A DNA stretch of 64,000 nt, from contig SCUJ01000005.1 in NCBI GenBank assembly GCA_004297165.1, positions 62,001-126,000 on the forward strand, given 5' to 3'. The DNA is from Gammaproteobacteria bacterium (lineage in GTDB: Bacteria; Pseudomonadota; Gammaproteobacteria; Eutrophobiales; Eutrophobiaceae). Each line of letters begins with the position of its first letter. The stretch's first letter is position 1. A program made the translations under genes and the position numbers. Shown in pieces: positions 40,298 to 47,529 of this stretch. A model generated the notes under the pieces. It saw only the letters and a list, made by a program, of their open reading frames with translations. It did not search any database and had not been told where the DNA came from.

Positions 40298-40608
40298 GCG
40301 GTCGTTCTTTATATATAAAGGTATCGCCGCTTGAGGCGATTTCATGCCGGCCAGGATTGAATGAATCCCGATGACGGGGCGCAAGTTTAATAGTAATGAT
40401 CCAGTGTTTCAAATCGACCTGGCTTGGAGGCCAGATTTTGATCGTAGCGAATGGGCGCATCGCGTTCAGGCGCCACCTTCCACCACTAATGGTGTTATTA
40501 TCCTGAAATTACACTACAATTTGCGCTATTAGTTCGACAATTATCCAAACTGACCACGGGGGCGTGATCAGCTTGTCGCGGCCAACAACCAGTGGGGGTG
40601 ATGTAGCC

Positions 40609-43470
40609 ATGATGCGATCTCTTACATGTTTCTTATCCGTTCTCGTTTTTTCATCCTGGGCATTCGCAGATATCGAGAGCGCGACACGGGCCCTGGATAG
40701 CGGGGATTACGCAACCGCGGCGCGCGAGTTCCAGATTCTTGCCGATCAGGGCGATGCCAGGGCGCAGGCCAACCTGGGGTACATGTACTACGTGGGCGAA
40801 GGCGTCCCGCAGAGTTACACGGAGGCGGTGAATTGGTATCGCAAGGCCGCGATCCAGGGCGACCGCGACGCCCAATACAACCTCGCCGTGGCTTATGCCT
40901 TCGGCGAGGGCGTCACCCAGAATTTCGCGGAGGCCGCCACATGGTATCGCCGCGCCGCGGATCAGGGCCATGTCCTCGCCCAGTACAGCATGGGTATCTC
41001 CCATGCCTATGGCGAAGGCGTGAACCAGGATGCGCGCGAGGCGGTGCGCTGGTTCACCGCCGCCGCCGAACAGGGTTATGACCGCGCCCAGGTGCAACTG
41101 GGCAGCAAATACCACACGGGCGACGGCGTCGCGCAGAATTATCAGGAGGCCGCCAAGTGGTACCGCATGGCGGCTGACCGCGGCAATGCCGCGGCCCAGT
41201 TCAATCTGGGCACGCTGTACCGTTCCGGCACTGGCGTGGAAAAGGATTACAACCAGGCGCTGCGCTGGTTCCGGCTGGCGGCCGACCAGGGCTATGCCTC
41301 CGCGCAGAATGAGCTGGCGAGTCTCGAACGGGCGATGGCCGGGGCCTCGCGCACACGTTCCACCGGCAGCTTGCAATCGCCGCCTCCTGTGAGCCGGCCT
41401 GCGCCTCCTGTACGTGAGGAACCAGCGCCGGCGCCCGCTGTCGCGCAACCTGAGCCAACGCCTGAACCAACACCCGAACCGACCCCGGCTGAGCCGGAAA
41501 CGCCGGTTGCCGTTGAGGAGCCGCCTGCGCCGGTTGAAGAGAACGCCACGACAGAGGAGGAACGTCCTTCCCGTTTCGGTTTCATCCGTAATATCTTCCG
41601 GCGCGACCGGGAGGAAGTCCCGGCTGAAGCAGAAACCGCCACGGCAGAGGTTGAAGACCGCTCCGCTCAAGCCGCTGCCGAAGCACCAGAAGCGATCGAA
41701 CCGGAACAACCCGAGGAAGAACTCCCCGCACCTGAGGCAGCACCCGTAGAAACGGAAGCAGAAGAAGTAGCGGAGGCGAAACGTCCCTCACGCTTCGGTT
41801 TTATCCGCAATATCTTCAATCGCGGAGACTCGGGCGAGGAACCTGCCGCCGTCGAGGAACCTGAATCGCCGCCCGAGGAGGTCGCGGTTGCCGAACCCGA
41901 ACCGGAACCCGTTGCCGAAACGGAGACGGGAACGGTTACGGAAGAATCTCCCGAACCGGCAATTGAATCCGCGGAAGAAGGTCAACAGCGTCCGGGCCTG
42001 CTCGCACGTCTGTTCAAACGCGACAACACGGAAGAACCTGCGGCGGAAACCGGGGTTGAGGCGACAGCAACGGAAGTAGTTGTTGAAGAACCCCCGACGC
42101 CGCCTGCCGAACCATTGGCAGAGACTGAACCCGCCGCGGAGGAAGAACAAGAGCGGCCGGGTCTGATCGCCAGAATCTTCAACCGTGACGAACAGGAAGC
42201 GGCGGCGGGAATCCCGGAAGAGACCGAAGAGGGCGACGTTTCCTCCATCGGCTATGCCGACCAGGACGCTGAATTCACCGCGTCGGCGGATCAGGTTGAT
42301 GCCGCGCGGATGGCGCTGCTGGAACGGGATTATCCCAAGGCCTACGAGGAATTCAGCACTCTCGCCAATCAGGGCGATCGCGCTTCACAATACGAACTGG
42401 CCTCGTTGTATTACCAGGGATTGGGCGCCCAGCAGAGTTACACGGAGGCGGCTTACTGGTATCAACGCGCCGCCGAACAGGGCGACAAGAATGCCCAATA
42501 CAGCCTCGGCAACATGTATCTGATGGGCGAAGGGATAGAGCAAAGCGACGTCAAGGCCGCTTACTGGTACGAACAGGCCGCCGAACAAGGTCACGAAGAG
42601 GCGCGTCACAACCTGGACAACATCGCCAAGGTCAAGGAGATCGCCGCCGCGCCGCCGGAGGAGGTGGAAGGCGAGGCGTCGCTGGAAGAGGCAGCCGGCG
42701 AGACCGCTGCCGCGGCTGGCGAGAAGCCCGCCAATTCCGGTTTCTTCCGGAACCTCTTCAAGCGCGACAAGGAAGAGAACCCTGAACCGGCGAAGAAAGT
42801 GACCGCGCCACCGGAAGAGGAGGAGATCGCGCCACCCAAGATCGTCTCTGCGGCGGAGACCGAGGCAGAGCCGGAGAAAAAAGGATTCTTGAAACGCTGG
42901 TTCGGCAAGGATGAAGAAGAGGAGACCGAGACTGCCGCCGAAACCCAGGTTGCAACCGCCGATACCGCAAAGGCGATGACCATCCTTGAAGGCAACGCCA
43001 CGCCCGAACAGGAAGCCAGGGTAATCGCTATTGCGGATTACGAGAAAGGCATGTCCTACTCCTTCGGCGAAGGCGTCGAGAAAGACAGCGCCGAGGCCTT
43101 CCGCTGGTTCCTGAAGTCAGCCGAGCAGGGGCATGCACCGGCGCAATATAAAGTGGGTGTCGCCTATGCCTACGGCGACGGCGTCGCACAGGATCCGGTT
43201 GAAGCGGCCGGCTGGTATCGCAAGGCCGCGCTCCAGGGATACGCCCTGGCCCAGCGCAATCTGGGCACCATGTATGCCCAGGGCGAAGGTCTCGATGCAG
43301 ATAAACCGCTGGCGTTTGCCTGGTACAGTGTTCTGGCCGATAGCGGTAACGTGATGGATATCCGCCGCCGGGATCAACTTCAAAGCGAACTGAGCCAGGA
43401 GGAATACCGGCGCGCCCTGGAGATCAAGGAAACTCTCTTGGGTTCCATCAGAGCTGGCGGCAGGGAATAG
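40609..43470 (+). CDS. Large exported SEL1-like repeat protein with acidic E/P/A-rich linker
   Basis: SEL1 units (AQ.NLGxMYYxGEGVxQ...A.xWYRKAAxQG) at N-, middle and C-terminal parts; signal peptide MMRSLTCFLSVLVFSSWAFA. Confidence 0.9.
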   Translation: MMRSLTCFLSVLVFSSWAFADIESATRALDSGDYATAAREFQILADQGDARAQANLGYMYYVGEGVPQSYTEAVNWYRKAAIQGDRDAQYNLAVAYAFGEGVTQNFAEAATWYRRAADQGHVLAQYSMGISHAYGEGVNQDAREAVRWFTAAAEQGYDRAQVQLGSKYHTGDGVAQNYQEAAKWYRMAADRGNAAAQFNLGTLYRSGTGVEKDYNQALRWFRLAADQGYASAQNELASLERAMAGASRTRSTGSLQSPPPVSRPAPPVREEPAPAPAVAQPEPTPEPTPEPTPAEPETPVAVEEPPAPVEENATTEEERPSRFGFIRNIFRRDREEVPAEAETATAEVEDRSAQAAAEAPEAIEPEQPEEELPAPEAAPVETEAEEVAEAKRPSRFGFIRNIFNRGDSGEEPAAVEEPESPPEEVAVAEPEPEPVAETETGTVTEESPEPAIESAEEGQQRPGLLARLFKRDNTEEPAAETGVEATATEVVVEEPPTPPAEPLAETEPAAEEEQERPGLIARIFNRDEQEAAAGIPEETEEGDVSSIGYADQDAEFTASADQVDAARMALLERDYPKAYEEFSTLANQGDRASQYELASLYYQGLGAQQSYTEAAYWYQRAAEQGDKNAQYSLGNMYLMGEGIEQSDVKAAYWYEQAAEQGHEEARHNLDNIAKVKEIAAAPPEEVEGEASLEEAAGETAAAAGEKPANSGFFRNLFKRDKEENPEPAKKVTAPPEEEEIAPPKIVSAAETEAEPEKKGFLKRWFGKDEEEETETAAETQVATADTAKAMTILEGNATPEQEARVIAIADYEKGMSYSFGEGVEKDSAEAFRWFLKSAEQGHAPAQYKVGVAYAYGDGVAQDPVEAAGWYRKAALQGYALAQRNLGTMYAQGEGLDADKPLAFAWYSVLADSGNVMDIRRRDQLQSELSQEEYRRALEIKETLLGSIRAGGRE

Positions 43471-43539: not shown

Positions 43540-43569
43540 GTAGGGGCGAAAAATATTTCGCCCCTACAT
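43540..43569. repeat. Hairpin repeat copy 1 upstream of UGSC-like gene
   Basis: GTAGGGGCGAAA-AATA-TTTCGCCCCTAC. Confidence 0.75.
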
Positions 43570-43665
43570 CTAACATGGATGTGAAATCCGCTATAAACTT
43601 TCTATTCGAAATCATCTGAAAATGGGTGATCACCCTGTAAATTTATAACATTCCGGAGGGGTAAG

Positions 43666-45423
43666 ATGAATAGATTCCGTTTGTTCAACCCGTTATTTGC
43701 AATGCTGGCATTGGTATTTGCCACATGCACTCCTGCTGTGATCTCCGCCGGTGAAAAAATCACTGTCATGAACCCGGCCATCACCACGAAGATCGCCCAG
43801 CGGTTACCCATGACGGCCCCCCGCCTGGACACGCTGGAAGGCAAGACCATTTACCTGATCGACAACCAGTGGGGCGGCCCGGAAGGCGCCTATCAATTAC
43901 TTGAGGAAATGCAAAACTGGTTCGCCGAGAATAGTCCAGGCATCAAGACCGTGTTGCGCCGCACCAAGGGCAACATGTTCACCGATGACCCGGAGCTCTG
44001 GCAGGAGATCAGCGAGAGAGGAGACGCCGCCATAGTCGGCGTCGGCCAGTGAAACGGTTGTGTGTCGGCCGTGAGCCGGCATGCCAGAACCCTGGAGCAG
44101 ATGGGCGTTCCCACCATCGGCGTCTCGGCCGTCACCATGGTCCGCTACGCCACCGAATACGACTTCAAATACGCGAACGGCATGCCCATCCGCTACGTGG
44201 CAGTTCCGTTCCCGGTCACCGGACCGACCCGGGCGATGCATCGGGCATACGTTAACGGCAAGGATCAGTTAAGCGGCAAGCCCTTGATGACGGCGATCAG
44301 CGACGCCCTGACTGCGCCGCTGACCGACAGTGAGAAGATGACGAATACAACGGAAGTCCAGGCGCAGGCGGAGCCGCGTTTTCTGCCGCCGGATACCGAG
44401 GATAATTTGCGGCAACTCTTCAAGGACAAGGAATGGACGGACTACAACCCGATCATCCTGCCGACGGAGGAGCGGGTGAAGAAGATGCTCGCCGGCACCA
44501 GCCACAAGCCGGATGAAGTCGTCAATGCCGACACCTTCAACGCCGGCAGGCGGGAATTGACGGTGGAGAAGGTCGCCATCGCCGCGGTGATGGCCGGCGC
44601 GAAACCGGAATACATGCCGCTGCTGCTTGCCATCATGGCCTCCGGCGTACCGTACGGCAACTCCACTTCCTCCATGGCGAATGCCATCATCGTCAACGGC
44701 CCGATCCGCAACGAGATCGGCATGAATCCGGGCACCAACGCCATGGGTCCCTACAACGACGCCAACTCCGTCGTCGGCCGGTTCTTCAGTTTGTGCGGAA
44801 AACTCGCCGCCGATTTGCGCAACAATGTCACGGCCGTGGAATCGCTCGGCAACAACCTGCAATACAACAATCTGACCGTCGCTGAAAACGAGGAGATGTT
44901 GCCGGAAGGCTGGCAACCGCTGCACGTACAGATGGGCTTCAAGCCCACCGACAGCGTGGTTACCATCGGCACCGGCTGGACGTACATCTCGAGTCTGGGC
45001 GAGGTACAGCCCGCCTACCCCGCCAACATGCTGATCGCCGATTACATGCGATCGCTGTCGGCACTCGGATCAGCCGCCACCCTCTTCGTCGACCCGACCG
45101 TAGCCGGCTTGCTGAATAACGTGAACGGTTATGCGACCAAGCAGGATTTCAGCAAGTGGTTGGCGGGGAAGGTCGAGAAGACCGTCGCCTCCTACTGGGG
45201 CAACGGTGTGGTCATGACCTCGAATAATGCAATGGCGATCCAGGGGCTGGCGCCGTACGCGGACTGGAGCAAACTGCGCAAGGAATCCCCCGATGCCCTG
45301 ATCAAGCCGTTCAACAATCCGGAGGCGATCAACATCGTGGTGGTGGGCGGCGCCATCCAGACCACCTGGTTCGTGACAGACTTCCGGCTGCGCCGGGGGA
45401 CATTGGTGGATGACTGGCGGTGA
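43666..45423 (+). CDS. UGSC-family-like (seleno)protein, in-frame UGA at 44050-44052 read as selenocysteine
   Basis: ORFs 43666-44052 and 44062-45423 are in the same frame; junction VGVGQ-UGA-NGCVSAVSRHARTLEQMGVPT gives a U-x-x-C motif; continuous gene with signal peptide. Confidence 0.82.
44060..44084 (+). promoter_or_regulatory. Putative bacterial SECIS-like hairpin after UGA
   Basis: TGTCGGC (44063-44069) - CGTGA loop - GCCGGCA (44075-44081), extendable with G-U pairs to 44060/44084. Confidence 0.5.
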
Positions 45424-45450: not shown

Positions 45451-45480
45451 GTAGGGGCGAAAGATTTTTCGCCCCTACAT
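45451..45480. repeat. Hairpin repeat copy 2 downstream of UGSC-like gene
   Basis: gtaggggcgaaagatttttcgcccctacat, near identical to 43540-43569; may also act as terminator. Confidence 0.75.
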
Positions 45481-45486
45481 CTTTAA

Positions 45487-47529
45487 TCAATACACCAACC
45501 TGAGTCTCGCGGTTACCGCCCGACCGGGCAGGGGCGCTCGATCTTTGAGAAAGGAGGTGTGCCGGCGGGCGTCCTCATCCAGCAGGTTGCTGCCGCGCAG
45601 GGACACCGTCGCGCCCCATTTGTTTTTCCGCCATTTGTAACTGATCCCGGTATCCAACAGCAGGTACGCGGGGGTTACGGTTTCGAGTCCCGCGGTCTGA
45701 TCCTGGGCGAAGGTATTCACCAGATCCAGATCGGCGTGCCAGGGACCGCGGTTGAATTCCAGCTCCAGGCCGAGCCGGCCTGGCGGGATGCGCGGCAGGT
45801 CCCCGCCCCGATGCAGCCGCGCCCTGACCCAATCGCCCCAGAGCCGGAGATCCAGCGTCCATGCCTCGCGCTCGATCAGGGTCCGCGTGTACTCCGCTTC
45901 CAGACCGTAAAAAAATGCATCGCCCTGCATCTGCCGGACCAACAACAGATCGCCGCCGGGGGTTCCATCCGCAGCCACGCGATCTGCGTTTCCATCCCCG
46001 TCGCCATCCTGCTCCCGCTGATGGACATAGTCCTCGATGTAATTGAAGAACAGGTTCAGCATCCACTGGTTCGCGTCGTGTTCCCGGCGCAGGCTTAGAT
46101 CGAGGTTGTTCGCCGTCTCCACTGCAAGCGCGGGATCACCGATCTCGTAGGTCCCGCTGGATAGATGCGGACCGTTGGATAGCAATTCTTCGATGTCCGG
46201 CGCGCGCTGCGAGCGGGTGAGCGACAATCCCACCGAGCGCAGGTCATCGAAATGCCAGACGGTCCCCGCGGAGATCGACCAGGCCGCGTGATCTATTTCC
46301 GGTAACCCGGAGAGCGATACAGGCGTAACCGTCTGGCGTTCGTACCGCAGGCCGCCTTCGAAATGCCAGTCGCCGCGATCGGTATTCTCCAGCATGAAGA
46401 TCCCCGCGGATTCCAATCCCGCCGGAGGGACAAAGGCCTCATCGCCAACGGCGGAGAAGTCCCGCTTGCGGTACTGGAAGCCCCCGGTGCCGTCCCAGCC
46501 GGCCAGGGGTTCGTGTTGTATTTCCGTCCGCAGTTCCCACTCATCGTTGCTGAATACCGTGCCCGGTTCGCCCGGGGCTTCAAACTCAGTGTGGCCATAA
46601 TCCACGTGTCCGACGCGCAGGCGGATCCCGCGCACGCCGGGCAGCGGTTTCAGGATCCTCCCGGAAATATCGATGCGGTCCTGGGCCTGATCGATATAGA
46701 CCGCCTCGGGCGCCGATGGATCGACGGGAATCTCGTAGCGGTTTTCATAATGCCCCAGGGAGAGACCGAAAAAACCTTTATCTTCGACGATCCAGCTCAG
46801 GCCCCCGTTCAGGTCGCGGCTTTGCACCCCACTGTTCGGCACTGCCCCGGAGGGTCCTGAATAATCCCCCGCCTGCCGGAACATGCCATCGACGTGCAGG
46901 CCCAGTCCACCCTGCTGCGCATCCGCATTGAAACCCGCGTAGCCCGGTTCCGCCGCGGAGAGGAACCCGGCGTTGATGCTGGCGCTGAAAGGCTCCGTCG
47001 CGTTCTCATGGATACGGTTATTGCTGATATTCACGATGCCGCCGGAGGCGCCGCTGCCGAATAACAGTGTCGCGGGCCCGCGCAGGACCTCAATCTGTTC
47101 TGCGCTCATGGGCTCGAGGGTAACGGCGTGATCGACGCTGATGGTCGAGACATCCATGGAACCCAGGCCATTCTGCAGGATGCGCACGCGCGGGCCCGCC
47201 ATGCCGCGGATGACCGGACGGCTCGCGCCCTGACCGAAATCGCTGGCGGAGACGCCCGGTTCGCGGGCCAGGGTCTCGCCCAGAGTACCAGCCATTTTTT
47301 CGAAGAGACGATCCCCTTGCAGGACACTCACGGGTTGCGCAATGTGATCGATGCCCTGGGCGCTGTCCGGCCGCGCCGTGATGATGACTTCCTCCAGGCG
47401 ATCATCGTGTTGTGCCGATAACCGCGTGCTGAAGGAACCGGCAGCGGCAATACATAGAATCGAATAACTGACTATGCTTATGGTACGCATTAAATTTGCA
47501 CCCCAATACTGAACAGGAAACGACGCCAC
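45487..47529 (-). CDS. TonB-dependent receptor (ZnuD-like metal type)
   Basis: 680 aa; LGETLAREPGVSASDFGQGASRPVIRGMAGPRVRILQNGLGSMDVSTISVDHAVTLEPMSAEQIEVLRGPATLLFGSGASGGIVNI. Confidence 0.88.
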   Translation of the reverse strand: MASFPVQYWGANLMRTISIVSYSILCIAAAGSFSTRLSAQHDDRLEEVIITARPDSAQGIDHIAQPVSVLQGDRLFEKMAGTLGETLAREPGVSASDFGQGASRPVIRGMAGPRVRILQNGLGSMDVSTISVDHAVTLEPMSAEQIEVLRGPATLLFGSGASGGIVNISNNRIHENATEPFSASINAGFLSAAEPGYAGFNADAQQGGLGLHVDGMFRQAGDYSGPSGAVPNSGVQSRDLNGGLSWIVEDKGFFGLSLGHYENRYEIPVDPSAPEAVYIDQAQDRIDISGRILKPLPGVRGIRLRVGHVDYGHTEFEAPGEPGTVFSNDEWELRTEIQHEPLAGWDGTGGFQYRKRDFSAVGDEAFVPPAGLESAGIFMLENTDRGDWHFEGGLRYERQTVTPVSLSGLPEIDHAAWSISAGTVWHFDDLRSVGLSLTRSQRAPDIEELLSNGPHLSSGTYEIGDPALAVETANNLDLSLRREHDANQWMLNLFFNYIEDYVHQREQDGDGDGNADRVAADGTPGGDLLLVRQMQGDAFFYGLEAEYTRTLIEREAWTLDLRLWGDWVRARLHRGGDLPRIPPGRLGLELEFNRGPWHADLDLVNTFAQDQTAGLETVTPAYLLLDTGISYKWRKNKWGATVSLRGSNLLDEDARRHTSFLKDRAPLPGRAVTARLRLVY

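Follow-up and report, generated by a model that had tools for sequence, protein, structure and literature searches.

Selenocysteine (Sec) is costly, and most Sec-using bacteria encode few selenoproteins per genome. The described systems closest to the gene studied here are the UGSC family (Pfam PF24696; NCBIfam NF041046) and the PrdB/GrdB family (PF07355) of the D-proline, glycine, sarcosine and betaine reductases. UGSC proteins have a Sec site followed by a Cys at +3, occur elsewhere in Cys forms and number one or two copies per genome. A 2016 census listed 26 organisms with 33 UGSC genes between them; the record for all families together was 39 selenoproteins in one bacterium (PMC5029168). 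A UGSC/Unknown_1 fusion is described in the 2008 GOS survey; there, too, a UGSC domain is joined to a conserved domain whose function is not known (PMC2398784, Fig. S1A). The passages of that survey considered here describe no multi-copy repertoire, no split-gene form and no link to GrdB/PrdB. None of the papers searched names a function for the "UGSC family."

We analyzed a 64,000-nucleotide stretch of DNA (the window) from a gammaproteobacterial genome of 3.53 Mb in 13 contigs (98.95% complete). The window contains a gene with the same domain, the same Sec site and the same Cys at +3 as the UGSC family (Table 1). It differs from that family in its U-N-G-C motif, which replaces U-G-S-C, in its two-domain architecture and in the probable export of its product, as predicted from the sequence. 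It also differs in belonging to a set of 16 copies in one genome.

Table 1. Features of the two-domain UGSC gene and its surroundings (positions in the window)
Feature	Position	Strand	Remarks
Two-domain UGSC-family selenoprotein gene, complete	43666..45423	+	585 residues plus stop; UGA = Sec at codon 129
Shine-Dalgarno region of ATG 43666	43653..43665	+	ccggaggggtaag; ggagggg at about 43655-43661
Probable N-terminal export signal	43666..43752	+	hydrophobic stretch, residues ~10-27
UGSC domain (Pfam PF24696)	43765..44250	+	residues 34-195; core predicted to be alpha/beta, Rossmann-like
TGA decoded as selenocysteine (U129)	44050..44052	+	N-terminus of a predicted helix
TGT codon, Cys132	44059..44061	+	conserved partner, +3 of the U-x-x-C motif
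Bacterial SECIS-like hairpin	44062..44082	+	begins 12 nt downstream of the U in UGA
C-terminal domain, ~380 aa	44275..45420	+	no Pfam or NCBIfam family matched; separate gene in other bacteria and haloarchaea

One reading frame across a single UGA

The first-pass annotation had joined two open reading frames, 43666-44052 and 44062-45423, across one UGA. Both indeed lie in one frame: 128 codons lead from the ATG to the TGA, and the same frame runs on beyond it. Within the 586 codons, TGA occurs in frame only at codon 129 and as the gene's own stop (45421-45423), which is followed by TAA. The residues around the Sec site read GVGQ-U129-N-G-C132-VSA. Such joins are common by chance, as a loose criterion yielded 23 joins of long frames across one TGA in the window, this one included, and most of them are clearly noise. 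The case for a selenoprotein therefore rests on the evidence from family and homology and on the Sec machinery.

Membership in the UGSC family, also proposed at first pass, was borne out, since the joined protein scored 68.5 bits with the Pfam UGSC model (E 1e-18), well above the cut-off of 25 bits. The equivalog cut-off of the NCBIfam model UGSC_fam (NF041046) was not reached (48.6 versus 125 bits), and the paralogues scored 65 to 82 bits. The U-N-G-C motif, previously regarded as a possible variant, proved to be a real one and belongs to a subfamily that also occurs in two other gammaproteobacterial MAGs and in an Acidobacteriota MAG. The suggested signal peptide is plausible: a basic N-terminus precedes a 12-residue window with a mean hydropathy of 2.5, and export was judged from this hydropathy.

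Haloarchaea and other Pseudomonadota encode the C-terminal domain separately, beside a short UGSC gene, so the window gene represents a fusion of two partners. One of these separate proteins has an N-terminal stretch that is weakly thioredoxin-like (E 0.009, below the cut-off). A scan of viral contigs for the C-terminal domain found none. As far as the GOS passages considered here describe it, the architecture of the window gene is probably that of the UGSC/Unknown_1 fusion; this assumes that the C-terminal domain is Unknown_1.

Decoding of the UGA as selenocysteine

A search of the genome for selA, selB, selC and selD recovered all of them; SelA, SelB and SelD are encoded, and the tRNA-Sec has a UCA anticodon (70.8 bits). 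The SelD gene (G000:C13:1128855-1129781) contains one in-frame TGA, which makes SelD itself probably a selenoprotein. The sel locus (L051; G000:C2:142688-151898) has the order selB / UGSC / selA / ... / UGSC / tRNA-Sec. One UGSC copy lies between selB and selA, and the second directly follows the tRNA-Sec downstream, at a distance of about 140 nt and in the same orientation. The location of two of the sixteen UGSC genes in this locus suggests that Sec use and the UGSC family are tied together.

We then consider conservation at the UGA and beyond it. Homologues lacking both Sec and Cys at this site had been named as evidence that would speak against Sec; instead, Cys (TGC or TGT) occupies the site in Neorhizobium, Variovorax, haloarchaea and some short forms (L083, L086, L087, L129, L130, L132, L133, L135 and L136). 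In an alignment of 35 sequences, both positions of U/C-x-x-C were invariant. Raw reads with TGC or TGT in place of the TGA had been named as well; indirectly, the same TGA in orthologues from independently assembled MAGs and in 15 paralogues speaks against this. Downstream of the UGA, dN/dS was 0.15 and 0.09 against two orthologues and 0.25 against an Acidobacteriota homologue; judged by these ratios, the sequence past the UGA is under purifying selection. Sec is replaced by Leu or Asn in a few Acidobacteriota copies and by Met in a Sporomusa homologue (Asn, Leu or Met in L117:1-1290, L117:1444-3261 and L134:6695-8449), and these members are possible non-redox or regulatory offshoots. On the IncP plasmid p2-T1 of Acidovorax sp. 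T1 (L131:7965-8255), a 97-codon "hypothetical protein" ends exactly at the UGSC TGA, so that the annotation is cut at a probable Sec codon.

The hairpin after the UGA consists of an 8-bp stem (44062-44069 paired with 44075-44082) and the loop CGUGA (44070-44074). It is present in the window gene and most relatives, and a sister subfamily has it in the same place with the loop GGUC. Its stems swap among G-C, A-U and C-G pairs in relatives. Covariation scores in two groups were 0.294 versus 0.162 when shuffled and 0.221 versus 0.112; none of 500 shuffles scored as high, and the covariation collapsed in slid controls. One UGSC subfamily (L120, L122, L125, L126 and L051:7765) shows the hairpin less clearly. 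The Neorhizobium form encodes a nearly identical peptide with Cys (CSTCAPAVT) and has only 3-bp stems at the hairpin site; it is a natural control for the hairpin.

Together, the machinery, the Cys homologues and the recurring TGA support the reading of the UGA as Sec, and 43666-45423 almost certainly encodes a selenoprotein. It is very improbable that translation stops at the UGA and reinitiates at GTG 44062 to give two proteins, or that the gene is a decaying pseudogene. The GTG does open the downstream frame 9 nt after the TGA; however, it has no Shine-Dalgarno sequence, as the first-pass annotation had remarked, whereas that of the ATG at 43666 is clear, and the break falls on a catalytic residue inside a conserved domain. 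Neither two proteins nor a pseudogene would agree with a TGA kept in the 16 own copies and in relatives, with Cys in homologues and with purifying selection that continues past the break. A sequencing error, or a UGA read as tryptophan (genetic code 4), is more improbable still, and nothing was found in favor of either. The identical TGA in independently assembled MAG orthologues argues against an error, while code 4 is at odds with a gene that itself ends in TGA, with homologues that have Cys and not Trp, and with the tRNA-Sec.

Sixteen UGSC genes, their spread and their neighbors

The larger result, a 16-copy repertoire, falls outside 43666-45423. Across the whole genome, 16 genes proved to encode a UGSC domain, and each of them has one TGA, always at the same site. 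The motifs at this codon include UNGC (in two copies), UDGC, UHGC, USTC, USSC, USLC and UGSC. An N-terminal hydrophobic segment is found in 13 of the 16 copies, which accordingly look exported from their sequences, and is missing from three.

Two related gammaproteobacterial MAGs have TGA in all copies that span the site. Among 58 genomes around the source genome, comparable UGSC sets were found only in one MAG of the same genus and one of the same family; one further genome of the family had a C-terminal fragment only. Across the phylum, the UGSC domain was detected in 6 of 399 genomes, the source genome counted, and the other five had one or two matches each, all of the short form where complete. 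Three Acidobacteria/Terriglobia MAGs carry 12, 27 and 14 copies, mostly with TGA. In the order of one of these, 11 of 81 genomes were positive, ten of them with 5 to 17 matches, nearly all TGA. Some Acidobacteriota and the two related gammaproteobacterial MAGs have repertoires of 5 to 27 copies, which most of the other sampled genomes lack. Large repertoires are probably undercounted, since these genes are truncated at the UGA by automated annotation. In the MAG of the same genus, one UGSC gene (L056:489-2371; G001:C128) is broken by an apparent frameshift between both domains and is either a pseudogene or an assembly error.

The own copies form no clade of their own in the protein tree. They are interspersed with orthologues of Acidobacteriota and of the other gammaproteobacterial MAGs, and Sec has been kept. 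This scatter indicates that the subfamilies are old and common to both phyla; most simply, we infer from the tree that they spread between phyla by repeated transfer.

Clustering the genes around the own copies revealed no shared neighbor, and function thus cannot be read from one conserved operon. The gene immediately upstream of one cytosolic own copy (L046; G000:C13:1589066-1590643) encodes a TrxR-type flavoprotein whose CxxCD is intact. A TrxR-type enzyme with intact CxxCD also adjoins the Variovorax and Haloterrigena UGSC genes, and the Variovorax SRS16 cluster includes a "trxB." The flavoprotein neighbor keeps the CxxCD site of thioredoxin reductase (TIGR01292), but its score of 264 bits lies below the 343-bit equivalog cut-off. 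No TrxR-type neighbor was seen beside most copies, that of the window included. In Variovorax and Haloterrigena, the neighbors are catabolic (SDRs, dehydrogenases, LysR regulators and TTT substrate-binding proteins). The source genome has, among others, PQQ-dependent dehydrogenases, a glucose/sorbosone dehydrogenase, a molybdopterin dehydrogenase with rhodanese, and TonB receptors beside its copies. These neighbors favor small-molecule breakdown over general redox repair.

Directly upstream of the window gene, 40564-43470 encodes a 968-aa protein with ten detected Sel1 repeats. A TonB-dependent receptor gene (45487-47529, minus strand) is convergent with the window gene, and a TonB receptor also adjoins the cytosolic copy in L048. 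A near-perfect 28-bp palindrome (GTAGGGGCGAAA..TTTCGCCCCTAC) flanks the gene on both sides (43540-43567 and 45451-45478). Only seven occur in the genome, and a third one is placed just after the UGSC paralogue on C1; the palindrome is possibly a small mobile or terminator element.

Probable kinship with PrdB/GrdB and proposed function

Profile comparison makes it very probable that the UGSC domain is distantly homologous to GrdB/PrdB. Using hhalign, the UGSC profile was matched to a PrdB/GrdB-like profile with a probability of 94.4% and an E-value of 9e-8, Sec being aligned on Sec. A wider UGSC alignment gave 95.2%, and controls (reversed profiles and the C-terminal domain) gave at most 1%. 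The E-values ranged from 3e-8 to 9e-8 and refer to one pair, picked after the resemblance had been noticed. Two independent scans with curated models agree with this kinship: an own paralogue matched NCBIfam GrdF (sarcosine reductase; E 0.0015, residues 102-202, Sec included), and a PrdB matched Pfam UGSC (E 0.018). By hmmscan, the window protein had no direct match to PF07355 up to E 1. The alignment places the Sec of UxxC on Sec over about 72 columns, and both families have LE..G(I/V)-TV and P-R...P stretches after the Sec. The third Cys of the GrdB UxxCxxC is missing in UGSC, and PrdB has UxxC. The UGSC protein differs from PrdB/GrdB in its partner domain and its probable signal peptide, and the likeness is confined to the Sec-centered part.

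An AlphaFold2 model of the UGSC domain predicted the order beta-alpha-beta-alpha-beta-(U)-alpha-beta, with U129 at the N-terminus of a helix. Confidence was moderate (pLDDT 62; pTM 0.64) because only six sequences were usable as an alignment. Solved structures matched it with TM-scores of at most about 0.5 and were Rossmann and flavodoxin/lumazine-synthase-like. The C-terminal domain gave a poor model. Foldseek on the full-length model returned poor, mostly spurious matches, since only the UGSC domain was confidently modeled. In the PDB, sequence searches starting from the joined protein or from profiles of the single domains yielded nothing beyond weak or chance matches, and no solved GrdB/PrdB turned up with the GRDB profile.

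These data bear on a different assignment. In the passages considered here, the 2008 GOS survey suggested a thioredoxin-like fold, by which the protein would be a periplasmic thiol-disulfide oxidoreductase or a peroxidase (PMC2398784). The UxxC motif fits such a protein, and most characterized selenoproteins have a Trx-like fold (PMC13188914). However, the order predicted by the moderately confident model is Rossmann-like, no thioredoxin was among the 50 matches listed, and the profile match is to PrdB/GrdB. We regard the thioredoxin-like assignment as unlikely.

We favor, as the probable interpretation, a single gene whose product is a probably exported selenoprotein of two domains, in which a GrdB/PrdB-related UGSC domain is fused to a partner and works by a GrdB-like mechanism. 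The UGA at 44050 would be decoded as Sec by SelA, SelB, SelD and tRNA-Sec together with the SECIS hairpin, and the UGSC domain would carry the catalytic U-x-x-C. Sec129 would attack, as the nucleophile, a small organic substrate held between both domains and cleave it reductively. Cys132 would resolve the intermediate as an Se-S bond, and the selenol may be regenerated by a thioredoxin-reductase-type flavoprotein or by thioredoxin. Substrates would differ among the approximately 16 diverged copies of a genome. For the chemistry itself, GrdB-like reductive cleavage has slightly better than even chances. We infer a family of TrxR-driven selenoenzyme reductases with diversified substrates; against this stands that an exported protein would not be directly reducible by a cytosolic TrxR.

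More tentatively, the two-domain UGSC proteins may be reductive selenoenzymes related to GrdB/PrdB and form a class not characterized so far; most would be exported, and TrxR-type partners would regenerate them. In this view, they diversified in some Acidobacteriota of soil and sediment and in a few Gammaproteobacteria, reaching 5 to 27 copies per genome, mostly Sec-containing and differing in substrate, and their subfamilies moved between the two phyla. In the present organism, a single family of unknown function has 16 members, all with Sec, in a 3.5-Mb genome. If the family is linked to the proline and glycine reductase selenoproteins, UGSC would move from "Trx-like, unknown" to testable substrate-cleaving reductases, and the same link, if true, would extend proline/glycine reductase chemistry to exported enzymes.
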